Notes under the pieces: generated by a model
Seen by the model: the letters and a program-made list of their open reading frames with translations, nothing else
Database searches by the model: none
Told to the model about the DNA's origin: nothing
Origin: Lachnospiraceae bacterium
Lineage (GTDB): Bacteria > Bacillota > Clostridia > Lachnospirales > Lachnospiraceae
Direction: 5' to 3'
Assembly: GCA_017480445.1 (NCBI GenBank)
Contig: JAFVAO010000073.1
Location: forward strand, 1-33,535
Length of the DNA: 33,535 nucleotides
Made by a program: the position numbers and the translations under genes
Part shown: positions 1 to 25,732 of the stretch, one piece after another
Numbering within the stretch: the first letter of the stretch is position 1
Layout: every line of letters starts with the position of its first letter

Positions 1-878
1 CCGATGCGCAGGAGGCGGCTGAGACACTCTCCCACAATCGCGAGAAACACTATATCCTGCCGGAGGGAACGCCGGTGGATTTCCTGGTGGGACTGGGCGT
101 GCAGACGCCGGAGGGCAAGGTGGTCAAGGCCAAATATGACAAGTTCCGGCAGATCAACCGGTACCTGGAATTCATCGAGGATGTGTTGGATGTGCTGCCG
201 CAGGACAGAACCATCCGCATCATTGACTTCGGCTGCGGCAAGTCCTACCTGACCTTTGCCATGTATTATTATCTGTACCGACAGCAGGGCAGGGACGTAC
301 AGATCACGGGCCTGGACTTGAAGACCGATGTGATCCGGCACTGCAATGAACTGGCGGAGCGTTTGCACTATGACCATCTGCGGTTCGAGCGGGGAGATAT
401 CAGCACCTATGAGGGCACGGATTGTGCGGATATGGTGGTGAGTCTGCACGCCTGCGACAAAGCGACGGATTTTGCGCTGGAGAAAGCGGTCAAATGGAAT
501 GCGCGGGTGATTCTGGCGGTGCCCTGTTGTCAGCACGAGCTGAACGGGCAGATGCGCTGCGCATTGTTGCAGCCGGTTCTGAAATACGGCGTGATCAAGG
601 AGCGCATGGCGGCGCTTTTGACGGACGCGCTACGCGCCAATCTGCTGGAGCAAAACGGATATGACACACAGATTCTGGAATTTATCAGTCTGGAGCATAC
701 CCCCAAAAATCTGCTGATCCGCGCGGTGCGGCGGGGACGTACTATGCAGGCATCCGGTGCGGGCGAGACGGCGCGGATCAAACGAAAGGCATCCGGTTCG
801 GATGTGCGGGAAATCATGGATTTTCTGCATGTGGAACCGACATTGGAGCGATTGTTGCATGAAGAAATTAATGATTAG
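1..878 (+). CDS. Class I SAM-dependent methyltransferase, 5'-truncated by the window edge
   Basis: The reading frame is open from base 3 and ends with TAG at 876-878, so the true start lies upstream of the window. About 291 C-terminal residues are visible. They carry a methyltransferase motif I of the form IDFGCGKSYLTFA (nt ~220-260), then SLHACDKATD and a VPCCQHEL block. This combination is typical of the Methyltransf_32-type family, whose members are thought to modify RNA or protein; the substrate cannot be read from the sequence. The last 20 bases overlap the start of the next gene (ATG 859), which suggests translational coupling. A GTG at 75 could be taken for a start, but the frame continues upstream with normal protein-like sequence. 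Confidence 0.85.
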   Translation, partial: DAQEAAETLSHNREKHYILPEGTPVDFLVGLGVQTPEGKVVKAKYDKFRQINRYLEFIEDVLDVLPQDRTIRIIDFGCGKSYLTFAMYYYLYRQQGRDVQITGLDLKTDVIRHCNELAERLHYDHLRFERGDISTYEGTDCADMVVSLHACDKATDFALEKAVKWNARVILAVPCCQHELNGQMRCALLQPVLKYGVIKERMAALLTDALRANLLEQNGYDTQILEFISLEHTPKNLLIRAVRRGRTMQASGAGETARIKRKASGSDVREIMDFLHVEPTLERLLHEEIND

Positions 879-3384
879 ACTGGTCGTATTTGCGGCCATT
901 TTCCTGCTCACACTGGTGGTGGCGGGAAATATCATGAATCAGGGACATGACAATATGACGATGGAGATGGCGGAAGCGTCATTGCCCATTGTCTCCGTGG
1001 AGCGCGGTGGGGTGCGCTATAACGAATTGCACGGATACACTGTTCCCATGGAGACTTTTGCCATGCGGGAGGCAGTCACGGTCTTGGAGGAAAACCGCAA
1101 TTTCTCCCTGTATATTGATCTGTATGGCAGAAATGTGACAGGGATGTCAATAGAACTGCGCAGTACCGACGGCACACGCCTCGTGGAGAGTACAGAGATC
1201 ACGTCGTACCAAACGGAGGGGAATCGGGCATATGCGGATATCACGCTGAAGGATCTGATTGACCCGAAGACAGAGTATGCTCTGAAAATCACCCTGACGC
1301 TGGACGATGATACGCCGGTGGACTACTACACGCGGGTGGTGTGGAGCGATGATCTGAAGATGGAGGAAAAGCTTTCGTTTGTGCTGGATTTTCACAACCG
1401 GCTCTTTGACAGGGAGGCGGCGAAGGAGCTGACCAAGTATCTGGAGACCAACGCGCAGTTAGAGGACAATGCTTCTTTCCACAAGGTGAATATTCACAGC
1501 AGCTTCCGGCAGCTGACCTGGGGGAATCTCGATGTGCGGCAGCAGGGCGATACGGTGGTACGACTGACGGAGATCGGAGAACAGACGGCTTCGTTTTTAC
1601 TGTATTATACGGTGTACGGCGGGAGCGGTGAGGATCGCACCGACTATCGCGTGGTGGAGCACTATCGGGTGCGCTATACGACGGACCGTATGTATTTACT
1701 GAATTATGAGCGGACGATGACCCAGATCCCCAATCCGGATCGGATGGTGGCGAATGACAAGATTCTGCTCGGGATCACGGGCACGGATATCCCGCTCATG
1801 GAGAGCGAGGACGGCAGCAGTGTGGTATTTGTGGTGGATGGCCAACTCTACAGCTACAACGCCACCAACAATAAGCTGACAATTCTCTTTGGATTTTATG
1901 ATCAAAAGCATATGGATGCGCGGGATATGTACGACGAGCATGCCATCAAGATTTTGGATGTGGATGAGGGGCAAAATGTGAGCTTTGCCGTATACGGCTA
2001 CATGAACCGCGGCCGCCACGAGGGCGAGGTGGGAACGCAGCTCTACACCTACAACAGTGCCACCAACACCATTGAGGAAACGATTTATATCCCCTATGAC
2101 AAGGGATATGCGATGCTGAAGCCGCAGATGGAGAAGCTGTTGTATCTGAACAGGGATCAGAACCTGTATCTGATGCTGGAGGATGTGGTGTATGTCATCG
2201 ATCTGGAGGAGAAGACCTATTATCCCATGGCGAGCGTCCTGCAGAGCGATATGGTACAGGTATCCGACAACCATCATATTCTGGCATGGCAGGAAGGGAG
2301 CGATCTGTATCACAGCAAGCAGCTCCATATCAAGGATCTCAACACGGAGATCCAGCAGGACATGACAGTGACGGCGGAGGAGTCCGTGCGGCTGATGGGC
2401 TTTATGGGAGAGGATATCATCTATGGCGTTGCCCGCAATGAGGATGTTTATCGGGAGAATTCCGGCCGTATCTTTTTCCCGATGTATAAGCTGTGTATCT
2501 GCGATGCCGGAGGCAATCTGCTCAAGGAGTACAGCCAGGAGGAGATCTATGTGACGGATTGCAGCGTGGAGAGCAATCAGATCACTTTAGAGCGGGTAAA
2601 GCGGCAGGCGAACGGGGCGTACGTGGCGGCCGCAACCGATCAGATCATGAACAGCGTCGAGGAGGAGGTCGGTAAATACACCATTGTTGCGCCGGCGATC
2701 GATACCTACGAGCGCTATGTGCAGATCCAGACGAGACGCACGATTGACAGTAAGACGCTACAGGTGCTGACGCCCAAGGAGGTTGTGTTCGAGGGCGGCC
2801 GGGAGCTGGTGCTGGAGACAGACACGGACGCGGTAAAATATTATGTGTACGGTGCTTACGGCGTGGAGGGGATCTACAGTCAGCCGTCCAAGGCGGTCTC
2901 GCTGGCCAACGAGGTCTCCGGCGTGGTGGTGAACAGACAGGGCAATGTGATCTGGCGCAAGGGCAATCGGGCACAGCGCAACCAGATTATGGCGATCACC
3001 GCGATCCAGACCACAGAGGAGCAAAACAGCCTTGCGCAGTGTCTGAACACTATGTTAAAATATGAGGGAATCACCAGAAATGCGGAGTATCTGTTGGAAC
3101 AGGGACAGACGGTGATGGAGGTCTTACAGAACAATCTGGAGCACATACAGGTACTGGACTTGAACGGCTGTGAGCTGGATGCCATGTTGTATTATGTGGA
3201 TCGGGATATTCCGGTGCTGGCGCTGCTGGATGACGGCGGAGCCGTCCTGATCACCGGCTACAACGAGTACAATGTGGTGGTGATGGATCCTGCGAAGGGG
3301 ACATTGGCCAAGATGGGAATGAACGATGCCGCAGAGTGGCTCAAGAAAAACGGAAATAATTTTGTAACCTATAGCAGAGAATAA
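859..3384 (+). CDS. Exported or membrane-anchored protein with propeller-like middle and degenerate C39-like peptidase domain
   Basis: The protein has 841 residues. ATG 859 is preferred over upstream in-frame starts because it is followed at once by a basic N-terminus and a hydrophobic segment (residues ~6-23), a signal peptide or membrane anchor. Residues ~310-600 contain repeated short beta-strand units with patterns like VVFVVDGQLYSYN and LYLMLEDVVYVIDL, suggestive of a beta-propeller. The last ~130 residues resemble the papain-like C39 (YvpB-type) fold: a Cys near residue 728 in AQCLNTMLKYEG, and an ITGYNEYNVVVMDP strand near residue 800. In active members a His normally precedes that strand; here the residues are GGAVLI, so catalysis is doubtful. 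The gene overlaps the methyltransferase and is followed 33 bases later by a small leader-like gene. The function is unknown. Confidence 0.8.
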   Translation: MKKLMIRLVVFAAIFLLTLVVAGNIMNQGHDNMTMEMAEASLPIVSVERGGVRYNELHGYTVPMETFAMREAVTVLEENRNFSLYIDLYGRNVTGMSIELRSTDGTRLVESTEITSYQTEGNRAYADITLKDLIDPKTEYALKITLTLDDDTPVDYYTRVVWSDDLKMEEKLSFVLDFHNRLFDREAAKELTKYLETNAQLEDNASFHKVNIHSSFRQLTWGNLDVRQQGDTVVRLTEIGEQTASFLLYYTVYGGSGEDRTDYRVVEHYRVRYTTDRMYLLNYERTMTQIPNPDRMVANDKILLGITGTDIPLMESEDGSSVVFVVDGQLYSYNATNNKLTILFGFYDQKHMDARDMYDEHAIKILDVDEGQNVSFAVYGYMNRGRHEGEVGTQLYTYNSATNTIEETIYIPYDKGYAMLKPQMEKLLYLNRDQNLYLMLEDVVYVIDLEEKTYYPMASVLQSDMVQVSDNHHILAWQEGSDLYHSKQLHIKDLNTEIQQDMTVTAEESVRLMGFMGEDIIYGVARNEDVYRENSGRIFFPMYKLCICDAGGNLLKEYSQEEIYVTDCSVESNQITLERVKRQANGAYVAAATDQIMNSVEEEVGKYTIVAPAIDTYERYVQIQTRRTIDSKTLQVLTPKEVVFEGGRELVLETDTDAVKYYVYGAYGVEGIYSQPSKAVSLANEVSGVVVNRQGNVIWRKGNRAQRNQIMAITAIQTTEEQNSLAQCLNTMLKYEGITRNAEYLLEQGQTVMEVLQNNLEHIQVLDLNGCELDAMLYYVDRDIPVLALLDDGGAVLITGYNEYNVVVMDPAKGTLAKMGMNDAAEWLKKNGNNFVTYSRE

Positions 3385-3417
3385 CATGCCAAAGTGTGGC
3401 GGAAAGAGAGGAAACAG

Positions 3418-3636
3418 ATGGATATCAAAGAGAAAGTACAGGAGATGGTGAACAAGATTGCTTCGGACAAGGCGCTGCAGGAGCAGTTCCAGAAGGATCC
3501 GGTGAAGGCTGTGGAGAAGGTGCTGGGCGTGGATCTGCCGGACGATGTGGTCAATAAGATCGTGGACGGCGTGAAGGCAAAGCTGACCGCGGATAAAATC
3601 GGGGATGTGGCAGGCGCCATCAAGAAGTTGTTCTAG
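3418..3636 (+). CDS. Small acidic/basic helical protein resembling NHLP/Nif11-type leader peptides
   Basis: The protein has 72 residues. ATG 3418 has a GGAAAGAGAGGA ribosome-binding region just upstream, which decides against an earlier in-frame start. The segment FQKDPVKAVEKVLGVDLPDD (residues ~23-42) resembles the DP...LG...LP pattern of nitrile-hydratase-like leader peptides (NHLP), precursors of some ribosomally made natural products. No C-terminal Gly-Gly site or Cys/Ser/Thr-rich core is visible; the C-terminus is AGAIKKLF. No recognisable maturation enzymes sit nearby, although the upstream gene has a C39-like domain, the fold that trims such leaders. It could equally be a small structural protein unrelated to peptide maturation. 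The call as a gene is firm; the function is open. Confidence 0.75.
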   Translation: MDIKEKVQEMVNKIASDKALQEQFQKDPVKAVEKVLGVDLPDDVVNKIVDGVKAKLTADKIGDVAGAIKKLF

Positions 3637-5344: not shown

Positions 5345-6538
5345 TCAGTTGTTTTTTAACTCACCGGCCTTGTAGCGGGTCACGATATTCTGGATGCGCT
5401 CATTGGGATTGAGCAGATCACTGATAGAGGAATCGTGGTTCAGGGTATCGATGATGTAAGCAATATATTTGCTCAGGTCGCAGTTGATGTACCATTCGCG
5501 GCTCAAAAGCTCCGGTGTCTGGTAGATCAGGTTGGTGGTCAGGATCCTGTCGATGATTCCGTCCTCATAGGCCTTATCAAAACGCTCCAGACCGCTGGTG
5601 AAGAGTCCGAAGGTGGCGAAGACGAACACCTTGTTTGCCTTGCGCTTCTTCAATGCGGCGGCTACTTCCAGGACACTTTCGCCGGAGGAGATCATATCGT
5701 CGATGATGATCATGTCTTTCCCTTCCACGCTGCTTCCGAGGAACTCATGCGCAACAATGGGGTTGCGTCCGTCCACCACGCGCGTGTAGTCGCGACGCTT
5801 GTAGAACATACCCATATCCAGCCCGAGCACATTGGCAATGTAGATTGCACGGCTCATACCGCCCTCATCCGGGCTGATGACCATCATGTGTTCGGAATCG
5901 ATTTGCAGATCACTTACATGACGCAGCAGACCTTTGATAAACTGGTAAGCCGGCTGTACCGTCTCAAAGCCGTGAAGCGGGATGGCGTTCTGCACCCGCG
6001 GGTCATGCGCGTCAAAGGTGATGATGTTGTCCACGCCCATGGCAACCAGCTCCTGCAGCGCAAGTGCACAGTCCAGAGATTCTCTGGCAGTTCTCTTGTG
6101 CTGGCGACTCTCATACAAGAATGGCATAATCACGGTAATCCGGCGTGCCTTTCCGCCGACGGCGGCGATCACACGCTTCAGATCCTGATAGTGGTCATCC
6201 GGCGACATGTGGTTCTCATGTCCGCACAGCGAATAGGTCTGGGAATAATTGAGTACATCCACTAACAGGTAGAGATCGGTACCGCGCACCGACTCTAAGA
6301 TCATTCCCTTTCCCTCACCGGATCCGAATCGGGGAACTTTGGTGTCCAACAGGTAGCTGTCCCGCATATAACCGGAAAAGGCAAGCGATTCCTTGTGCTC
6401 GCTCTCGCGCTCGGCCCTCCATTTTACCAGATACTGGTCTACGGATTCTGCGAGAGGGGTGCATCCTTTCAGGGCAATGATCCCCAGGGAACCAACGGGG
6501 ATTGTCTCCAGATTACGCTTCTCTTCACGATTTGGCAT
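5345..6538 (-). CDS. prs: Ribose-phosphate pyrophosphokinase, long Clostridia form
   Basis: The protein has 397 residues, about 80 longer than the common ~315-residue enzyme. The extra length is mostly an N-terminal extension. It makes PRPP from ribose-5-phosphate and ATP for purine, pyrimidine, NAD, His and Trp synthesis. Visible signatures are FDAHDP (residues ~175-180, metal-binding loop), YKRRDY (residues ~246-251, flexible-loop Lys/Arg) and the PRPP-binding IIIDDMISSGES (residues ~277-288). The start ATG 6536-6538 has a TGAGGA site and lies 17 bases after the dnaI-like gene, so it is the last gene of a dnaD-dnaI-prs operon and is followed by a strong terminator. The placement links nucleotide supply with replication initiation. 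Confidence 0.92.
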   Translation of the reverse strand: MPNREEKRNLETIPVGSLGIIALKGCTPLAESVDQYLVKWRAERESEHKESLAFSGYMRDSYLLDTKVPRFGSGEGKGMILESVRGTDLYLLVDVLNYSQTYSLCGHENHMSPDDHYQDLKRVIAAVGGKARRITVIMPFLYESRQHKRTARESLDCALALQELVAMGVDNIITFDAHDPRVQNAIPLHGFETVQPAYQFIKGLLRHVSDLQIDSEHMMVISPDEGGMSRAIYIANVLGLDMGMFYKRRDYTRVVDGRNPIVAHEFLGSSVEGKDMIIIDDMISSGESVLEVAAALKKRKANKVFVFATFGLFTSGLERFDKAYEDGIIDRILTTNLIYQTPELLSREWYINCDLSKYIAYIIDTLNHDSSISDLLNPNERIQNIVTRYKAGELKNN

Positions 6539-6555
6539 GAATATGTCCTCACTTT

Positions 6556-7548
6556 CTATTCACTCATATGTACATTTGATAATTTGCGTTTCATACGGAT
6601 GTCCGGTCCGGTCAGCTTACAGAGTGTAAAATTGCTGGTCACTCTGGAAAAAACACGGTCGGAGTAACGATCACGCAGTTCCGCCAAATTCAGATTGGTG
6701 GATATGATCGTTGATTTGCGGCCGATCTGACGCTCGTTCAGGCAGGAAAACAATTGTGTGGAAACGAAGGAATTGGTCATTTCCGTACCGAGATCGTCTA
6801 TGATCAACAGGTCGCAATTGTACAGATCGTTGTAGAAATTATACAGAGTTTCCTTCTCCTTTGTGCCGAAGGTATACGTGGCCAACAGATCAAACAACCT
6901 GCTGCTGCCGAAATACAGTACAGAGTGGCCGGCATGGAGCAGTTCATTGGCAATACAGCCGGAAAGAAAACTTTTTCCGGTACCTACTGTACCATAAAAA
7001 AACAGATTCGCATAGTCTTGTATAAAATTTTGTACAAAATCTCTGGATATTTTTACTGCCCCGCGGAACCGATCCAGATCCTCATCCTCGTAATAATCGT
7101 AGGATAATGTGGAAAAATTCTCGCGGGAGATGATTTCCCGAATATTGGACTGCTCATACAGCAGGGCAATCTCCTGATCCCGCAGACAGCTGCATTTCTG
7201 CTTTGCCTGCCCGGGAATATCTATGTAGCCGGTATCCCTGCACTTGGAACAGTTGTAAATGGGTTCCAGATAATCCGCGGGGAAACCGGCCTCTGTGAGC
7301 AGTGCCTCCTTGCGGCGCCGGATGTCCTCCACGAAATCGTGCATGGCAGTCATCGCCGAGTCGTCCCCGTCCAGCAGTGCGCGGGCGCGGGAGAGAGCGG
7401 TGCTTCCCACGGAGCGTTCCAGCTCTCTGTAGGCGGGAATCCGTGCATACACCGTCTGCTGCCGTTCCTCCAATGTCTGGCGGTTGGCCAGGCGGGTCTG
7501 CTCATAGCGTTTCATAATGGACTCATATTGCTGATTGCTCAGTGCCAT
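6556..7548 (-). CDS. dnaI: DnaI-like replicative helicase loader (AAA+ ATPase)
   Basis: The protein has 330 residues. The N-terminal ~95 residues are helical. Cys100, Cys103, Cys119 and Cys121 form a CxxC/CxC zinc-binding pattern like the helicase-binding domain of DnaI. The C-terminal AAA+ domain has Walker A GTVGTGKS (residues 186-193) and Walker B LLIIDD (ending at residues 251-252). The family loads the DnaB/DnaC-type helicase onto DNA at the origin and at stalled forks. ATG 7546-7548 has an AAAGGAG site. The gene lies 19 bases downstream of the DnaD-domain gene and 17 bases upstream of prs, so co-transcription is very likely. The symbol is by family resemblance. Confidence 0.92.
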   Translation of the reverse strand: MALSNQQYESIMKRYEQTRLANRQTLEERQQTVYARIPAYRELERSVGSTALSRARALLDGDDSAMTAMHDFVEDIRRRKEALLTEAGFPADYLEPIYNCSKCRDTGYIDIPGQAKQKCSCLRDQEIALLYEQSNIREIISRENFSTLSYDYYEDEDLDRFRGAVKISRDFVQNFIQDYANLFFYGTVGTGKSFLSGCIANELLHAGHSVLYFGSSRLFDLLATYTFGTKEKETLYNFYNDLYNCDLLIIDDLGTEMTNSFVSTQLFSCLNERQIGRKSTIISTNLNLAELRDRYSDRVFSRVTSNFTLCKLTGPDIRMKRKLSNVHMSE

Positions 7549-7567: not shown

Positions 7568-8716
7568 TCAGTTGCTCAGCAGCTCTTTCTCCAAAGCGTT
7601 AAAATCATAGCTGTTTTGCGAAAACTGATTGAATTTATTGCTGTCGGAGGACTGCTTGGCAGATGCCTTCCGACGATGATACAGCTCGTCAATCTTGTGA
7701 ATGTCCGCCTTGTGATGGACATTTTCATTGTGCCAGCTGCTCAGGATCCGCTCGGCGTACTCCAACCGATGGCGGTCTGTGGCCAGCACCGTGCGCTCAC
7801 AGGCTTCCATTATGACATCCATGTCAAATCCATACTCGCCGGTCCAGCGGGTAATGTATTCGGCCTCCTTCAAGGTAGGCATGCTGTTCTTGCCCAGCGC
7901 GTTCATAATCGTATAGACCTTTTTGTCATATTTATTGGCAAAACGCTTGGCCTGTGCCGGCGTAGATACCTTGTTCTCCGCCCAGTTGACGGCGACGCGT
8001 TCCATATATTTGAAGTCTTTTTTGCCGCGCTCCACACAGTAGGCGATCAGATAGTCGATCAAATCCACGGAGAAATGGAGTACATCCGTGAAGAACAGGA
8101 CGGACTTCATTTCCGCGGGCGTGAGCGGTCTGCCGATGTAGGATTCCGCGATAAAGAGCAGCTGCGCAGTCTCCTCGCGCTGTTTAAACGCCCGAAGCTG
8201 TTCGGTGGAATAGGAGGGCTTGCTGAATACGGGTACAATCGGTTCAGGCGCCTCTGTCACAGGCGTGATCAACTCTGCAGCCGGTGTTCTGGATGGAACC
8301 GGTTCTGTGACGGATGCCATGGGTGCGATCGTCTCCACCGCAGGTGTCACGGACGCGGTGTCGTTCTCCATGTAGATCGCGAGTGACCGGGAGGTGTCGG
8401 CGCGCCGTGCAGTCGTCTCCTCCGCATCCAGATCGCGGAAATGGATCCCCACGGGGATGCCGCTCTCATCGTAATCCAGCGTCAGCAGCTTATGCTTCTC
8501 CCAATATTTCAGGGCGCGGATGATCTCGCGCTCCGTGTGGTTGAACTTGTCCGCCAGATCGGACACACTGGTAGCCCGACTGGCACCCAGCATGCGGAGC
8601 AGATAGAGGTATACCTTCAGCTGAATATCGTTCGCGCCTTCCATATATTCATCGATAAACCGGTTGCAAACCGGGGTAACATTCTTGGAGTCTTTATAGA
8701 TTGTCAATCGTGCCAT
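7568..8716 (-). CDS. DnaD-domain primosome protein
   Basis: The protein has 382 residues. ATG 8714-8716 is chosen because GGGAAGG lies 10 bases upstream; earlier in-frame starts lack a site. The N-terminus forms a winged helix (residues ~35-95, with DLADKFNHTEREIIRALKYW). After a Pro/Thr/Glu-rich linker (~120-175) come two helical DnaB_2/DnaD-like modules: ESYIGRPLTPAEM through NWAENKVS, then YITRWTGEYGFDMDVIMEACE through ILSSWHNENVH. DnaD/DnaB proteins remodel origin DNA and recruit the helicase with DnaI, and this gene is directly followed by the DnaI-like loader. It could correspond to B. subtilis DnaD or DnaB, so no symbol is given. A cluster of DnaA boxes lies just upstream. Confidence 0.9.
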   Translation of the reverse strand: MARLTIYKDSKNVTPVCNRFIDEYMEGANDIQLKVYLYLLRMLGASRATSVSDLADKFNHTEREIIRALKYWEKHKLLTLDYDESGIPVGIHFRDLDAEETTARRADTSRSLAIYMENDTASVTPAVETIAPMASVTEPVPSRTPAAELITPVTEAPEPIVPVFSKPSYSTEQLRAFKQREETAQLLFIAESYIGRPLTPAEMKSVLFFTDVLHFSVDLIDYLIAYCVERGKKDFKYMERVAVNWAENKVSTPAQAKRFANKYDKKVYTIMNALGKNSMPTLKEAEYITRWTGEYGFDMDVIMEACERTVLATDRHRLEYAERILSSWHNENVHHKADIHKIDELYHRRKASAKQSSDSNKFNQFSQNSYDFNALEKELLSN

Positions 8717-8750: not shown

Positions 8751-8759
8751 AGTATAGCA
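8751..8759 (-). promoter_or_regulatory. Extended -10 promoter of the dnaD-dnaI-prs operon
   Basis: On the minus strand TGCTATACT gives a TATACT -10 (8751-8756) with the extended TGn motif. No good -35 is visible at 17 bp, so the promoter may depend on an activator or be open to DnaA control from the boxes ~70 bp upstream. Confidence 0.6.
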
Positions 8760-8825
8760 CAAGGATTTTGAAAAAGGAATAGGCAAATTTCCGAAAGAAA
8801 AATCGACATTTTCCGACACGCAAAA

Positions 8826-8976
8826 TGTGGATAATGTGGATAATGTGGATAAAAAATCCCGATCCGATCCAAAGAGCCGAGATGGATGGAGAAAAGCCGT
8901 GATCGGGATATCCACAAGGATAAAAAGAATATCCACAGAAACCAAATTTTCCGAAATTTGTCATTTCTGTGGATAT
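8826..8976. promoter_or_regulatory. DnaA-box cluster upstream of the primosome operon
   Basis: Three perfect consensus DnaA boxes (TTATCCACA read on the minus strand) stand head-to-tail without gaps at 8826-8834, 8835-8843 and 8844-8852. Three one-mismatch boxes, ATATCCACA, follow at 8908-8916 (+), 8929-8937 (+) and 8968-8976 (-). Six boxes within 151 bp are far beyond chance for a 9-mer. DnaA binding here could regulate dnaD-dnaI-prs, titrate DnaA, or mark an origin-related locus. Confidence 0.88.
8929..8976 (-). terminator. murC terminator hairpin built from two DnaA-like boxes
   Basis: Perfect 13-bp arms (8929-8941 and 8964-8976) enclose an inner CAAATTT/AAATTTG stem with a TCCG loop. On the minus strand the hairpin begins 10 bases after the murC stop codon and is followed by the T-rich TTCTTTTT. 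The outer arms contain ATATCCACA and its complement, so the terminator and two DnaA-like boxes are the same bases. Confidence 0.7.
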
Positions 8977-8985
8977 CGTGGAAAA

Positions 8986-10377
8986 TTATAAACCCAACAA
9001 ATTTTCGCCGATTTTATGGACGTCTCCGGCGCCCATAGTTATCAACAGGTCGCCCTTTGTGCAATTTTCCAATAGAAAATTTTCAATCTCATCAAAAGTG
9101 GGGAAGTAGTAACCCTCGCCTCCTGCAGCCCGGATTTTGGCAAGCAGTGTCTCGGAGCTGATCCCCAGGCGGTCGGTCTCCCGCGCCGCGTAGATGTCGG
9201 CCAGCACGACTTTATCCGCCAGACAGAGCGCCTTGGCAAAATCGTCCAGAAAGGCCTTGGTGCGGCTGTAGGTGTGGGGCTGGAACACGCACCAGAGTGT
9301 CTTGTGGGGGTAATTTGCCGCCGCTTTCAAAGTTGCAGTAATTTCTGTGGGATGATGTGCATAATCATCTATTATAGTGATATCGCCGATGCGTCCCTTG
9401 AACTCGAAGCGTCTGTCCGTTCCGGGGAAGGACAAGAGTGCCTGCCCGGTCACGGCCGGATCGATGGAGAGATAGTCGGCCAGTGCCAGCGCCGCCAGCG
9501 CGTTCCCGACGTTGTGGTCGCCCGGCACATGCAGGGCAAGCGCGCGGATCGGGTTCACTCCGATCAAAGAGCTGTGGGCGGTAAAGCTTGGATGGCCCAG
9601 CGTATCGTGCGTGATATCCGACGCATAGTAATCGGCCGCGGTATCGGTGATCGAGTAGGTGATCACACGGCAGGACAGGCCCTCCGTGATCTCCTTCAGG
9701 TCGGGAATGTCCGCATTGATGATCAGACAGCCGTCCGCGGGGAGCAGCTGGGCAAACTGACGGAAGGAGCGGCGGATATCCGCCAGATCCTTGAAAAAGT
9801 CCAGATGATCCTCCTCGATATTCAGAATAATGCCGATGGTAGGAAAAGAGCTTAAAAAGCTGTTGGTGTATTCGCAGGCCTCTGTGACAAAGTAGTCGGA
9901 GCCGCCCACGCGGATGTTGCCGCCGATGGGCTTGTAGATCCCGCCGATGGAGAGCGTCGGATCGGTCCCGGCCTCCAGCAGAATCTCGCTGATCATAGAG
10001 GTTGTGGTCGTCTTGCCGTGGGTGCCGCTGATCGCGATGGAATTGCGGTAATTCTTCATCAGCTGTCCCAGAAGCTGGGCTCTGGTCAGATGGGGAATCC
10101 CCTGCTCCATGGTCGCGATGTACTCGGGATTGTCTTCCCGGATGGCGCTGGTAAATACCACACAGTCGATGTCTGCGGTGATATTCTCGGCGCGCTGTCC
10201 GTAGAGGACGCGGATCCCCTTACCAGCCAGATGCTCGGTCAGATCGCTCTTCGCGCGGTCCGAGCCTGCAACGCGGAAACCGGCGTCCGCCAGGATTTCA
10301 GCGAGGCCGCTCATGCTGATGCCGCCGATGCCCACAAAATAAATGGAGGAGGGATGTGCAAAATCAATCTGATACAT
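8986..10377 (-). CDS. murC: UDP-N-acetylmuramate--L-alanine ligase
   Basis: The protein has 463 residues, the normal length for MurC. It adds L-alanine to UDP-MurNAc, the first peptide step of peptidoglycan synthesis, in the cytoplasm. Signatures are the N-terminal VGIGGISMSGLAEIL (residues ~15-29), the ATP-binding GTHGKTTTT (residues 118-126), the central EACEYTNSFLSSFP segment with the family's EACEY motif, and FQPHTYSRTKAF in the C-terminal domain. ATG 10375-10377 is preferred because AAAGGA lies 9 bases upstream. It is a single-gene unit with its own promoter and terminator, divergent from glgC. Confidence 0.96.
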   Translation of the reverse strand: MYQIDFAHPSSIYFVGIGGISMSGLAEILADAGFRVAGSDRAKSDLTEHLAGKGIRVLYGQRAENITADIDCVVFTSAIREDNPEYIATMEQGIPHLTRAQLLGQLMKNYRNSIAISGTHGKTTTTSMISEILLEAGTDPTLSIGGIYKPIGGNIRVGGSDYFVTEACEYTNSFLSSFPTIGIILNIEEDHLDFFKDLADIRRSFRQFAQLLPADGCLIINADIPDLKEITEGLSCRVITYSITDTAADYYASDITHDTLGHPSFTAHSSLIGVNPIRALALHVPGDHNVGNALAALALADYLSIDPAVTGQALLSFPGTDRRFEFKGRIGDITIIDDYAHHPTEITATLKAAANYPHKTLWCVFQPHTYSRTKAFLDDFAKALCLADKVVLADIYAARETDRLGISSETLLAKIRAAGGEGYYFPTFDEIENFLLENCTKGDLLITMGAGDVHKIGENLLGL

Positions 10378-10444
10378 AATATAAATCCTTTCAAAAAGCA
10401 AATGTCTGCTTCGCAGCCGCTTGTTTTTCCTATACGCCTATTAC

Positions 10445-21004: not shown

Positions 21005-24000
21005 TTGAAAGCAAAACGAGTACTGGCAATGATACTGAGCGTGGCGCTGACAGTGAATTCTGCAAGTTTCACACTGGATACGCGCGCGGCAGAAGCAGTG
21101 CCGGAGCAGACCGCCTATGTGGAGGATGTCGGTGCCGTTTCGTGGGATGTGTCCGGTGCAGCGGTGTCGGATGTATCCGGTGACGTGACGACTGCGGCGG
21201 AAGAGGATGTATCCGGAGACGTTGCGGATGCGGCGACGAAGGACGGCGGCGATGTGTCCGGCAGCGACGTATCGGACAGTGATCTGTTCGGCAGTAAGTT
21301 GGCGGAGACCCAGTCGGCCTATTTTGATCTGACCGCGGACGGTACACTGAAGTGGAAGGATGGCGTGAGTGCGGATACGCTCAAATCCAACATCACGGTA
21401 AGCCTGCCTGCGGGCACGGTCAAGATCCCGGTGGGTATTTTCAACAGCAATACCAAGATCGTCGGCATGACCATTCCCGACGGATGTGCACTTGCTGAGA
21501 TTGAGGCGGGGGCGTTCGAGCGCTCCGGCGTGAAGAGCATCAAGGATCTGCCTGCGGCGGTGAAGGTGATCGGCGAGGGAACGTTTAAGGATTCCAAGCT
21601 GCAGACCATTTCGTTTGCATCGGGCAGCCAGCTGACGACCATCGGCAAAGAGGCATTTTCAGGATCTAATCTGACGTCCATCACCATTCCGGAGGGCGTT
21701 GATACAGTGAATATTTCTGCCTTTAAGGGTTGTACAGAGCTGAGCACGGTCAATCTGACCAATGTGTCCACCGTGGAGGCGGATGCGTTCAAGGGCTGTT
21801 CGAAGCTGAACGTGATCGGCTGGAGCACGAAGCTTACCGCGATCAAGGACGGCGCGTTCTCCGGATGCGCCATCGCGGAGCTGAAGCTGGCAGGTTCTAC
21901 CTGGGCCGGCAATGTAACCTGGGGAGACAATGTATTCGAGAAGAATAAATCCCTGACCAAAGTAACCTTCCCGGATGCGATGACCAAGATCCCGTACGGT
22001 ATGTTTTCCGAGTGTACAGCGTTGACCTCCGTGACGCTCACCACCACCTGTACGTCGATTGAGGGAGAGGCGTTCGCGGATTGTACCGCATTGAAAAAGA
22101 TTACCATTCCGAAGAATGTGAGCCGCATCGCATCCAGAGCGTTTGCGGGATGTAAGGCGTTAGAAGAGGTTACCATCAACCAGCAGGGCAATACGAGCAC
22201 CGGAGAGAGTACCATCGTGATCGCGACGGATGCGTTCCCGGTTAAGACCATGACCATGAAGGGCTATGATGGTACTGTAGAGGACTATGCTGACATGAGA
22301 GGCTATACCTTCAAATCTCTGTTTGCAAGTCATTCCATTACGGTTGACAAGGGTTCCAACGGATCGGTGAGCCTGTCCTCCAAGAGCGCGAAGGCCGGCA
22401 CGACGATCGAGGTGACGGTGAAGCCCAATACCGGTTATCGATTGAAGGCAAGCACGTTTACCTATAATGACAACCCGATCACGACGCTGAAGGAGGAGAA
22501 GACGACCACAGAGACCTCCGGAACGACGACTACGACGGTTACGACACAGGTGTTCACCTTTGAGATGCCGGATGAGGACGTGACGGTCAATGTGGACTTT
22601 GAGAAGACCAGCGTGTCCTACGGTACGTTGTCCGCAGGCTTTGAGCAGACGGACGAGCAGGTGACCTACACCTGGAATTCCAGCAAGAAAGTGCTGACCC
22701 TGGACAAGGTGGGACATTCCTGTCAGCTGGTGGTTACCAGCAGCAAGGGCTCCTCGTACAATCCCGGCAGCTGGCTGTTTGACTATTCCAGCAACAAGAC
22801 GAATGTGGCGACGGTTACTTCCAAGGGCGTGATCTACGCAAGAGGCGTGGGTACCGCGACGATTACCGCGACCATGAAGTCCGATTCGGAGAAAAAGGTT
22901 ACCTTTAAGGTGACGGTGGAAGAGGAGGCTGATGCGGATCACTTTGAGTTGACCTATTCCGGCCTGAAGAAAGCGAAGCTTACCACGGAGACCATCGCCG
23001 GCAAGAAGTATACGATCATCACCTATACCAAGGGGAATGTGGCAAAGGGAGAGAAGACGTTTGATGTCGATGTGCGGATCACATCCGGCAACAACTCCAC
23101 CAATTTGATGCTGCCCACCACTTGGAAGATCAACAATGAGGATCTGTTGGAGGCTGCCAAGGAAACGGCCAACAACAATAACAATACGATCACCGTGAAG
23201 AAGGGTGTGGTCGGTGAGACGGCTGTCACAGTATCTGTAACAAACGGTCTCACGGATAAGAAAAAGGTTGTCTACTATGAGGAGAGCTTTATCGTCCGTG
23301 TCATCGATGTGACACCCAGACTGGTGCAGAGCAAGCTCACTGTGAACACCCAGTGTGTGACGGGTACAGAGTTTGAACTGTTGTCTGTATACGGCTACGA
23401 TGTCAACCCTGAGAGCCTGCAGGTGGTACAGGCGGTTAAGAACGGCTCCATCACAGAGTATGAGGAGACGGAAGCGGCTGGCTATGTGACCATCAAGAAC
23501 ATTGATGAAAAGTATTACATGGATATGACCGCAGAGGGTAAGAGTGCCGTGAAGGACAAGAACGGTAATCTCTCCTACAGCAATATGTATATTCAGGGCG
23601 ATTATCTGGATCCCGAGGGAACCCTCGACGGGGCGGATTATTTCCTGACACCGATCAAGTCTCTGGTATTGACGGCGAAGTCCTTAAGCCCGAAGGTATC
23701 CACCAGCGGAAAGATCAATCTGTTCTTCCGCGGCAATGCGGCTACCGAAGACAAGGGTGAAGTCACGGTAAAACAGAGCCTGACAGATCTGAATGTGGTC
23801 AGCTACGAGCTGGTTTCCACGGCCAACTACAACAAGGCAGGTTCCGAGAAGGTTGACTCGTTTGCCAACAACTTTACGATCACCAGTGAGGGTGTGATCA
23901 CCAGAACAGAGAATGATCTGAAGTATGATTCGGCAGGCAAACCTGTGACAAGCGGTTATCTGAAGATCACTTATGAGGGATATGAGCCCTGCTACGCGAA

Positions 24001-25732
24001 GATCACGGTTCCGACCCAGAACAAGAAGCCCGCGTATGTGCTTTCCAAGACCAAATTGACGGTCAACAGCTACAGTAAGGGATATGCGTTTACTGTACAG
24101 CTTTTGGATAAAAAGACCAAGAAACCGTTGTCTCTGGCCAACTTAAACAGCCTCAGCTTTGACGAGGATGCCAAGGGCGCGGTAAGCGGTCTGTTCGACA
24201 CCCTGGATACCGCAGCTGCAAGAGAGAGCGATGAGATCACGCTGCAGGTAAAGCAGGTACAGAAGGGCAAGGCGGTCATCAATGTGGAGATGGACACCTG
24301 GAGTGAGCCCATGAAGTTCACATTTGCACTGAGTGTGACGCCGAAGACACCGACTGTAAAGGCGAAGCCGACCACAATTACACTGAACAATCTCTGTGTA
24401 GGCAGAGTGGGTACCACAGTGCTGACCGTGAATCAGGCAGATGTGACGATCGACAGCATCGCACAGGTTTCCTTCAGCGGAAAGCTAACACAGTCCGCGG
24501 AGGCGGCGAAGATTTCCATCTCCTATGCGGACGGTGTGCTGAGCGCAAAGGCAGATCAGGAAGTTGCACCGGGCAGCTACAAATTTACCGTGACGCCGAT
24601 CGTACGTTTTGCGAGTGACAGCGTTGCGCCGGTGACTGTGAAGCCGATTGCGATCACGGTGAAGGTGATCAACACGAAGCTGACAGCAACCGCCAAGCCT
24701 GCAAGTGTGACCCTGAACAATAAGTATGTAGGCGGTGAGCTTGCGATGACCACCTACACGATCAAGAATCTGCCCGTTAGTGAAGAGATCAAAATCAATT
24801 CTGACAATGTGCGCATTGAGGGTGCGAATGCAGCGGCGGCACAGTTCGCAGGCTATTTTGACTTCGATTTTGCAGAGGACAAAACGGAGATCGGTGTGAG
24901 CCAGAAAGAGGCCGTATATAAGGCGGCAAGCTACAAGTACAAGATTTCCGGCCTCGCAGTGGATGTGGACGGCAGAGCAGTGGAGATTCAGCCGTTCAAC
25001 CTCACGGTGAAGGTGATCAACAAAGTCGGTACGCTGGCTGTGAAAGCGACCGGCGCGATCAAGATCGGCAACAGCGGTTCCACTATTGTATACACCTTGA
25101 CGCCGAAGAATACGGCAGTGTGCACGACAGATGCGGACGATGTGATTGTACAGGAGCTGGATACCACCAACAATTTGAATAAGCCTTACGAAGATGGTTT
25201 AGAGAATTTTGTCGTGGTAGATTACAAGAGAAATGACAACGGTTACATCACTGGTGTGGAGATCGCAGCGGATTCTGCTCAGTCACTGGACGCAAAGAAG
25301 ACCTACAAGATCAAGATCGGTATTGTGCCGAAGGATATGAGTGAGAGTAATGCGGTTTGGAGCTCTGTGCTGACCATTAAGCCGACACAGGTGCTGCCGA
25401 AGATCAAGACGGATGTATCCAGCGCGACGATGTACGCGGGCGTGGATATCAACAATCCGAGACGTTCACAGGAGATCAAGATCAGCAAGACCACCGAGGA
25501 GACGGCAGAGATCTCCGGCGTGATTCTTGCAAGCAGCAACGCTTCCGATGTGAAGAATGCGTTTGTGGTCACCTTTGATCCGGAGACGCAGAAGGCGAAG
25601 CTGACATTGGTACGTCCGGATCTGCTCAAGGCGAACACCACCTACGCGGTGAAGCTGGAAGTGAAGGTGGTCGGTCAGATCCAGAACACCACCGGACCGC
25701 AGTTTACCATCAATGTCAAGATTTTGAACTAA
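21005..25732 (+). CDS. Large secreted BspA-like leucine-rich-repeat protein with Ig-like domains
   Basis: The protein has 1575 residues. The start is TTG 21005 with a strong AGGAGGAG site. A signal peptide (MKAKRVLAMILSVALTVNSA) is followed by a low-complexity stretch of DVSG-type repeats (residues ~45-95). Residues ~135-435 hold BspA/TpLRR (LRR_5) repeats with patterns such as AFKGCTELSTVNLTNVSTVEADAFKGCSKL. Next come a bacterial-repeat module (SITVDKGSNGSVSLSSKSAK..., ~443-535, with a Thr-rich loop), a Big_2-like Ig domain (~590-640), and several further beta-sandwich modules to the end. No LPXTG, GW or SLH anchor is visible; the C-terminus is FTINVKILN. It is likely an adhesin or binding protein released or held by another route. 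Confidence 0.88.
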   Translation: MKAKRVLAMILSVALTVNSASFTLDTRAAEAVPEQTAYVEDVGAVSWDVSGAAVSDVSGDVTTAAEEDVSGDVADAATKDGGDVSGSDVSDSDLFGSKLAETQSAYFDLTADGTLKWKDGVSADTLKSNITVSLPAGTVKIPVGIFNSNTKIVGMTIPDGCALAEIEAGAFERSGVKSIKDLPAAVKVIGEGTFKDSKLQTISFASGSQLTTIGKEAFSGSNLTSITIPEGVDTVNISAFKGCTELSTVNLTNVSTVEADAFKGCSKLNVIGWSTKLTAIKDGAFSGCAIAELKLAGSTWAGNVTWGDNVFEKNKSLTKVTFPDAMTKIPYGMFSECTALTSVTLTTTCTSIEGEAFADCTALKKITIPKNVSRIASRAFAGCKALEEVTINQQGNTSTGESTIVIATDAFPVKTMTMKGYDGTVEDYADMRGYTFKSLFASHSITVDKGSNGSVSLSSKSAKAGTTIEVTVKPNTGYRLKASTFTYNDNPITTLKEEKTTTETSGTTTTTVTTQVFTFEMPDEDVTVNVDFEKTSVSYGTLSAGFEQTDEQVTYTWNSSKKVLTLDKVGHSCQLVVTSSKGSSYNPGSWLFDYSSNKTNVATVTSKGVIYARGVGTATITATMKSDSEKKVTFKVTVEEEADADHFELTYSGLKKAKLTTETIAGKKYTIITYTKGNVAKGEKTFDVDVRITSGNNSTNLMLPTTWKINNEDLLEAAKETANNNNNTITVKKGVVGETAVTVSVTNGLTDKKKVVYYEESFIVRVIDVTPRLVQSKLTVNTQCVTGTEFELLSVYGYDVNPESLQVVQAVKNGSITEYEETEAAGYVTIKNIDEKYYMDMTAEGKSAVKDKNGNLSYSNMYIQGDYLDPEGTLDGADYFLTPIKSLVLTAKSLSPKVSTSGKINLFFRGNAATEDKGEVTVKQSLTDLNVVSYELVSTANYNKAGSEKVDSFANNFTITSEGVITRTENDLKYDSAGKPVTSGYLKITYEGYEPCYAKITVPTQNKKPAYVLSKTKLTVNSYSKGYAFTVQLLDKKTKKPLSLANLNSLSFDEDAKGAVSGLFDTLDTAAARESDEITLQVKQVQKGKAVINVEMDTWSEPMKFTFALSVTPKTPTVKAKPTTITLNNLCVGRVGTTVLTVNQADVTIDSIAQVSFSGKLTQSAEAAKISISYADGVLSAKADQEVAPGSYKFTVTPIVRFASDSVAPVTVKPIAITVKVINTKLTATAKPASVTLNNKYVGGELAMTTYTIKNLPVSEEIKINSDNVRIEGANAAAAQFAGYFDFDFAEDKTEIGVSQKEAVYKAASYKYKISGLAVDVDGRAVEIQPFNLTVKVINKVGTLAVKATGAIKIGNSGSTIVYTLTPKNTAVCTTDADDVIVQELDTTNNLNKPYEDGLENFVVVDYKRNDNGYITGVEIAADSAQSLDAKKTYKIKIGIVPKDMSESNAVWSSVLTIKPTQVLPKIKTDVSSATMYAGVDINNPRRSQEIKISKTTEETAEISGVILASSNASDVKNAFVVTFDPETQKAKLTLVRPDLLKANTTYAVKLEVKVVGQIQNTTGPQFTINVKILN

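Follow-up and report, generated by a model that had tools for sequence, protein, structure and literature searches.

A candidate composite DnaA-binding element upstream of the dnaD-dnaI-prs operon in Lachnospiraceae

Positions 8751 to 9047 of the window, the 33,535-nucleotide stretch of Lachnospiraceae DNA analyzed here as a whole, probably form a composite DnaA-binding element that is characteristic of this family and governs transcription from the dnaD-dnaI-prs promoter. As the repeats have the sequence of DnaA boxes, share their variants with an oriC, keep a set spacing to a promoter, and are conserved together with the operon, DnaA control is the best reading of the locus. The element would perhaps titrate DnaA in addition.

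Box modules between murC and dnaD

All genes at the locus lie on the minus strand. murC (8986 to 10401; TIGR01082, 468 bits against a cut-off of 335) is separated by 269 bp from a dnaD-like gene with a DnaD/DnaB_2 domain (7568 to 8716, with the ATG at 8716; PF07261 and TIGR01446), which is followed by a DnaC/DnaI-type helicase-loader ATPase gene (6556 to 7548; over the cut-off of NF005304, with only 53 of 228 bits against the B. subtilis-type DnaI model NF006505) and a prs homologue of the PRPP synthetase family (5345 to 6538; over the cut-off of NF005299). The first-pass annotation had placed a DnaA-box cluster upstream of this operon.

The sites fall into four modules, designated M, A, B, and C. 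Module M is TTATCAACA at 9039 to 9047 (plus strand), within the last codons of murC and in its frame (TTG ATA A..). Module A adjoins the murC stop; its first box, A1 (8977 to 8985, minus), directly past the stop, is lost in the window, where it has decayed to TTTTCCACG, and A2 is ATATCCACA at 8968 to 8976 (minus). Module B consists of one or two boxes on the strand opposite to A, in the genus mostly 38 to 41 and 59 to 62 bp past A2, here B1 (8929 to 8937, plus) and B2 (8908 to 8916, plus), both ATATCCACA. Module C, ahead of the promoter, has two or three boxes that follow one another every 9 bp: in the window C1 (8844 to 8852), C2 (8835 to 8843), and C3 (8826 to 8834), each TTATCCACA on the minus strand, with the end of C3 69 bp ahead of the -10 hexamer. 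The promoter itself is an extended -10, TGCTATACT, at 8751 to 8759 (minus), without a good -35. The A2, B, and C boxes and the promoter are all recovered in the genus alignment. Both the spacerless triple of perfect boxes and the three ATATCCACA boxes had been described in the first-pass annotation and are confirmed; M and the decayed A1 are additions to it.

Within the window's own genome, a draft of 2.17 Mb in 82 contigs that is 83% complete, TTATCCACA occurs 28 times, and the murC-dnaD gap alone holds a close triple. Head-to-tail TATCCACA pairs with start distances of 9 to 39 bp number three, all in this gap, and the reversed control pattern gives none. Across the whole window, 45 TTATNCACA sites with at most one mismatch are observed against 25 expected, so that lone one-mismatch sites mean little and it is the cluster that is meaningful.

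Conservation of the array and codon constraint in murC

Conservation in relatives had been set beforehand as a test that could refute the first reading, and the array is found to be kept with the operon. The 450 bp ahead of dnaD contain three or more strict boxes at all 58 usable loci of the window's genus and at 70 of 107 loci representing as many other Lachnospiraceae genera. The gap-free layout recurs as well, with an abutting same-strand pair at 50 of 58 genus and 68 of 107 family loci. Sequence resampled from a first-order Markov model has a mean of 0.03 boxes per 450 bp and never an abutting pair, and in control stretches of neighboring coding DNA the mean box count is 0 to 0.11, with an abutting pair in at most one locus per control set. 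The DnaD of the window is 46 to 72% identical to that of the other genus loci (tblastn segments), and within the family identity to the nearest query is about 29 to 60%. In the 58-locus genus alignment, the well-conserved blocks are the boxes, the end of murC, and the promoter region.

The genus sample started from 61 genomes, from which G007 (no match), G051 (a C-terminal piece), and L045 (cut at a contig end) were dropped. The family sample started from 120 genomes; G080 and G092 gave no match, G000 and G045 are from the genus of the window itself, and weak matches (G103, G120, G127, G132, G148, G156, G168, and G176) were left out, which leaves 108 loci, one of which (L136, with 76 bp upstream) does not enter the array count. 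A third set, the named loci, holds the best 80 of 570 matches, mostly from Lachnospiraceae or genera thereof. One of these, L250 from Anaerobium acetethylicum (by taxonomy a member of Lachnospiraceae), has a DnaD 100% identical over the best segment to that of L080, from the window's family, and was excluded from pooled counts as a copy. Boxes were allowed at most one mismatch in the first genus and family scans; the strict class was used for array counts, codon and A-position counts, and promoter spacing, and a wider class for dnaD loci outside the family, for co-occurrence of M with gap boxes, and for counts of M against A pairs. All counts take the loci as they come, ignoring kinship, and most of the genomes are drafts.

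The remaining 37 family loci have fewer than three boxes, and some have the operon and no box at all. Among cultured members of the family, Lachnotalea glycerini (L190) and A. acetethylicum (L250) are examples that carry the array. No array is kept in [Ruminococcus] torques (L254) or Coprococcus comes (L228), and several Mediterraneibacter-like loci have a single box left. The initial interpretation therefore stands in part: that the cluster belongs to the operon's control region is supported, since it is kept with the operon and at a set distance from a conserved promoter, and the array is not indispensable, since about one-third of the genera sampled keep the operon and do without the array.

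In the genus, the first A box abuts the murC stop (0 bp) at 48 of 58 loci. In the family, its offset is 0 or 1 bp at 52 of 108 loci, and at 20 of them the 80 bp past the stop contain no plus-strand box. An extra site 21 bp past A1 is present at 36 of the 170 loci having a strict pair. Removal of 4 duplicates and of 11 loci that could not be parsed left 227 distinct loci. Of these, 128 have a first strict pair that begins at most 12 bp from the stop, and 122 of the 128 carry M. Where the first strict pair lies farther away (42 loci), M is kept in 23 and gone in 19, and in 8 of the latter a same-strand box stands 43 to 44 bp upstream of the pair; the window is one of the 23, its A module having decayed so that its first strict pair is C. 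M occurs in 31 of the 57 loci without a strict pair. Co-occurrence of M with at least two gap boxes gives, for the family (n = 101), 68 loci with both, 10 with neither, 15 with boxes only, and 8 with M only (Fisher P = 0.002, kinship ignored) and, for the named loci, the best 80 of 570 (n = 73), 43, 11, 17, and 2, respectively (P = 0.0003, kinship ignored), with 7 and 10 loci skipped. At the 6 of 101 family loci where dnaD lies within 70 bp of murC, M and the gap boxes are both gone.

Displaced arrangements occur too. In L123, boxes persist at the murC stop (0, 9, 21, and 45 bp) despite a 516-amino-acid frame between that gene and dnaD, and the gap between the two showed no C array. In L121 and L260, the array and the extended -10 are kept but lie some 520 to 590 bp ahead of dnaD, and the long leader that results has no convincing reading frame.

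The M codons TTG, ATA, and ACT are used in 55, 55, and 49 of 55 genus loci and in 76, 84, and 77 of 101 family loci; elsewhere in genus murC, their shares of the Leu, Ile, and Thr codons are about 10%, 16%, and 18%. Over the last 150 murC codons, the M positions hold ranks 1, 2, and 4 for synonymous constraint in the genus (148 columns) and ranks 1, 2, and 3 in the family (149 columns). As a perfect TTATCCACA would change the murC Leu to Trp, TTATCAACA represents, under the genetic code, a compromise compatible with the protein. A regulatory site appears to constrain the synonymous codons of a cell-wall gene, and the case is a clean one.

Outside Lachnospiraceae, no boxes were found at 24 dnaD loci from other Clostridia families (among 30 listed; 184 of 196 genomes matched) up to 600 bp upstream, or 170 bp in L276. 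M is absent from the 28 murC loci parsed from such families (30 listed of 79 matching genomes), and the 500 bp past the murC stop hold no box in 26 of these and one lone TTATCAACA in the other 2. Where Lachnospiraceae murC mostly has Leu (the TTG codon), 27 of the 28 have Ile or Val.

Promoter spacing, relation to oriC, and competing explanations

The dnaD -10 element reads TGCTATAAT or TGCTATACT, and an extended -10 of the form TG[N]TATA[AC]T is present at 193 of 249 pooled loci. From the end of the last strict box to the -10, the distance in the genus (n = 51) is 68 to 71 bp in 39 loci, 78 to 79 in 7, 87 to 88 in 4, and 98 in 1 (median, 70 bp; interquartile range [IQR], 69 to 71). Neighboring distances are looser, with IQRs of 46 to 72 bp from the -10 to the ATG, a distance that varies overall from 15 to 140 bp, and of 118 to 137 bp for the largest interbox gap. 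Outside the genus, where 94 of 188 loci could be measured, 39 fall at 65 to 71 bp, 16 at 76 to 80, 12 at 58 to 60, 8 at 49, and a few elsewhere, with the bins at 61 to 64, 72 to 75, and 81 to 86 bp empty; 55 of the 94 thus lie outside 65 to 71 bp. Because gain or loss of boxes in the 9-bp register accounts for part of these steps, they do not prove helical phasing. The boxes do stand at a set distance from the promoter, as expected of a DnaA-regulated promoter. A generic promoter scan of the window did not list the extended -10 at 8751 to 8759 and gave no excess over shuffled sequence.

The first-pass annotation had raised the question of whether oriC lies at the dnaD locus. The answer, from a closed genome of the genus (G006), is no. 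Its dnaA starts at position 122, a stretch of about 245 bp just ahead of dnaA contains nine sites with at most one mismatch, and the GC skew changes sign there and not at the dnaD element, dnaD being about 789 kb away. An oriC is expected next to dnaA, at a GC-skew sign change, and the dnaD element has neither property; with several boxes within a few hundred base pairs outside oriC, it is in G006 a cluster of the extraorigin kind. In the window's own draft genome, dnaA gave no match over the cut-off, and the window has no lasting GC-skew sign change at the element. dnaA lies away from dnaD in all nine genomes examined: at about 100 to 789 kb in the seven where the distance is measurable (for G161, on the assumption that contig 1 closes) and on different contigs in the other two. 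A conserved distance to oriC was considered and rejected, as it varies widely among these seven.

The G006 oriC contains TTATCCACA, ATATCCACA, and TTATCAACA. Same-strand spacings of up to 40 bp in the nine dnaA regions, three of which are cut at a contig start, are 11, 12, 20, 22, 33, 39, and 40 bp, and the 9-bp spacing never occurs among them. The G006 chromosome also shows strong strand polarity of WTATCCACA: among the first 100 of 188 places listed, the minus strand carries 56 of the 62 below 1.49 Mb, and the plus strand carries all 38 between 1.70 and 2.99 Mb. The reversed control has 35 places in total. This polarity may reflect codon use or leading-strand bias.

A first competing explanation is that the locus serves mainly to titrate DnaA or reset its activity, like the B. 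subtilis clusters or datA and DARS, with any effect on dnaD transcription incidental. Six to eight sites outside oriC, A boxes that stay by murC in L123 where dnaD is not adjacent, and the 100 to 789 kb between dnaD and dnaA in the measured genomes would all suit it, as would the early initiation of B. subtilis deprived of its six non-oriC clusters (PMC5295017, PMC13220808). However, the C array holds its distance to the dnaD promoter, the 24 dnaD loci of other families lack boxes, and not only does the distance to oriC vary, but the element is missing from most of the seven measured genomes. We therefore regard titration as the main function as unlikely.

Less likely by a good margin is that a different regulator binds the repeats or that they work at the RNA level, for example in murC termination, their likeness to DnaA boxes being misleading. 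The abutting 9-bp register, absent from the nine oriC regions (some cut at contig ends), could be so explained, and in the window a terminator-like hairpin (8856 to 8909, minus) followed by a T run enters C1. This possible murC terminator, which is not conserved as such, has a predicted energy of -18.5 kcal/mol (z = -1.6; 12 of 200 shuffles equally stable), and a scan with a loop limit of 8 found no terminator in the gap. A conserved RNA structure was rejected: the window has no Rfam match, and in 12 genus loci picked from the 58 the hairpins are inconsistent, whereas the boxes are consistent. The three variants shared with the G006 oriC and the presence of sites on both strands likewise argue against this explanation. 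A second or relic origin, although the box number and density rival those of oriC and helicase-loader genes adjoin, is hardly tenable given the G006 skew, which flips at dnaA and not at the element, the lack of a lasting sign change there in the window, and the location of dnaA elsewhere in nine of nine genomes.

Possible mechanism and known DnaA targets

Under the preferred reading, control of the dnaD-dnaI-prs promoter by DnaA, the initiator would bind both the upstream group (M in murC, A at the stop, and B opposed to A) and the abutting promoter-proximal array, C1 to C3. If transcription starts 7 bp past the -10 hexamer, the C boxes would be centered about 86, 95, and 104 bp upstream; an upstream center at such a distance resembles the position of a class I activator. 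This position, together with the poor -35 of the dnaD promoter, makes us lean toward activation, which on sequence grounds seems somewhat more likely than repression. DnaA occupancy would then set transcription of the helicase-loading genes, the upstream group might support a cooperative or looped complex, and the six to eight sites could also hold some DnaA.

With a conserved array of likely DnaA sites before the loader genes in many Lachnospiraceae, the initiator may tune how much of its partner proteins is available. Feedback through the DnaD produced is speculative, and a self-damping loop is possible. In its widest form, the idea would be that initiation in Lachnospiraceae is partly set by loader supply, with DnaA firing or throttling dnaD-dnaI, DnaD being drawn to the complex and damping it, and selection for the switch having fixed rare codons, and perhaps a change of Val or Ile to Leu, toward the end of the essential gene murC; we consider this whole scenario doubtful.

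DnaA-regulated promoters as such are already known. In B. subtilis, sda is activated and ywlC, vpr, yyzF-yydD, trmE-noc, and ywcI-sacT are apparently repressed (PMC4447404). At these promoters DnaA acts as a transcription factor (PMC4447404). The element resembles them in having boxes ahead of a promoter but differs in its helicase-loader target, its abutting 9-bp arrays, and the box in the codons of the upstream gene. B. subtilis also has six DnaA-box clusters outside oriC, which share with the element several boxes at a nonorigin site (PMC5295017, PMC11019786, PMC13220808); unlike them, the element has a conserved architecture tied to one promoter. The Caulobacter genes dnaB (helicase) and dnaQ, replication genes with predicted DnaA boxes upstream, offer a parallel in another phylum and with other genes, no comparable array appearing in the passage that treats them (PMC8203912). 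The main text of the same review, on DnaA as a transcription factor, contains neither dnaD nor dnaI (0 occurrences each; PMC8203912). In Staphylococcus aureus, a WalR site lies upstream of dnaD and prs is regulated by the same system; this regulator is not DnaA, and no regulation of dnaD was detected there (PMC10746227).

Like the element, E. coli datA and DARS are non-oriC DnaA-box elements, and they act on initiation. They depend on IHF or Fis and change the nucleotide state of DnaA. A possible role of the B. subtilis dnaB-dnaI operon as a DnaA target has reportedly been raised; in that event, the target would be less novel, and the layout no less so. In the literature searched (titles and the starts of abstracts), we found no description of DnaA control of dnaD or dnaI, nor of a helicase-loader target with this layout. 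The element bears both on the balance between initiator and helicase loader in Gram-positive bacteria and on DnaA targets beyond model species. The question can be put to a direct test, since the element occurs in most sampled genera of a large family of gut bacteria, has defined modules, and has been lost or displaced naturally at some loci.

Two other features of the window were noted. A small protein encoded at 3394 to 3636 (plus strand) has weak, sub-cut-off matches to NHLP/Os17-type RiPP leader models and stands behind a large frame (757 to 3384) without an NCBIfam match. On visual inspection, a 1,575-amino-acid reading frame at 21005 to 25732 (plus strand) resembles a large, repetitive surface protein.
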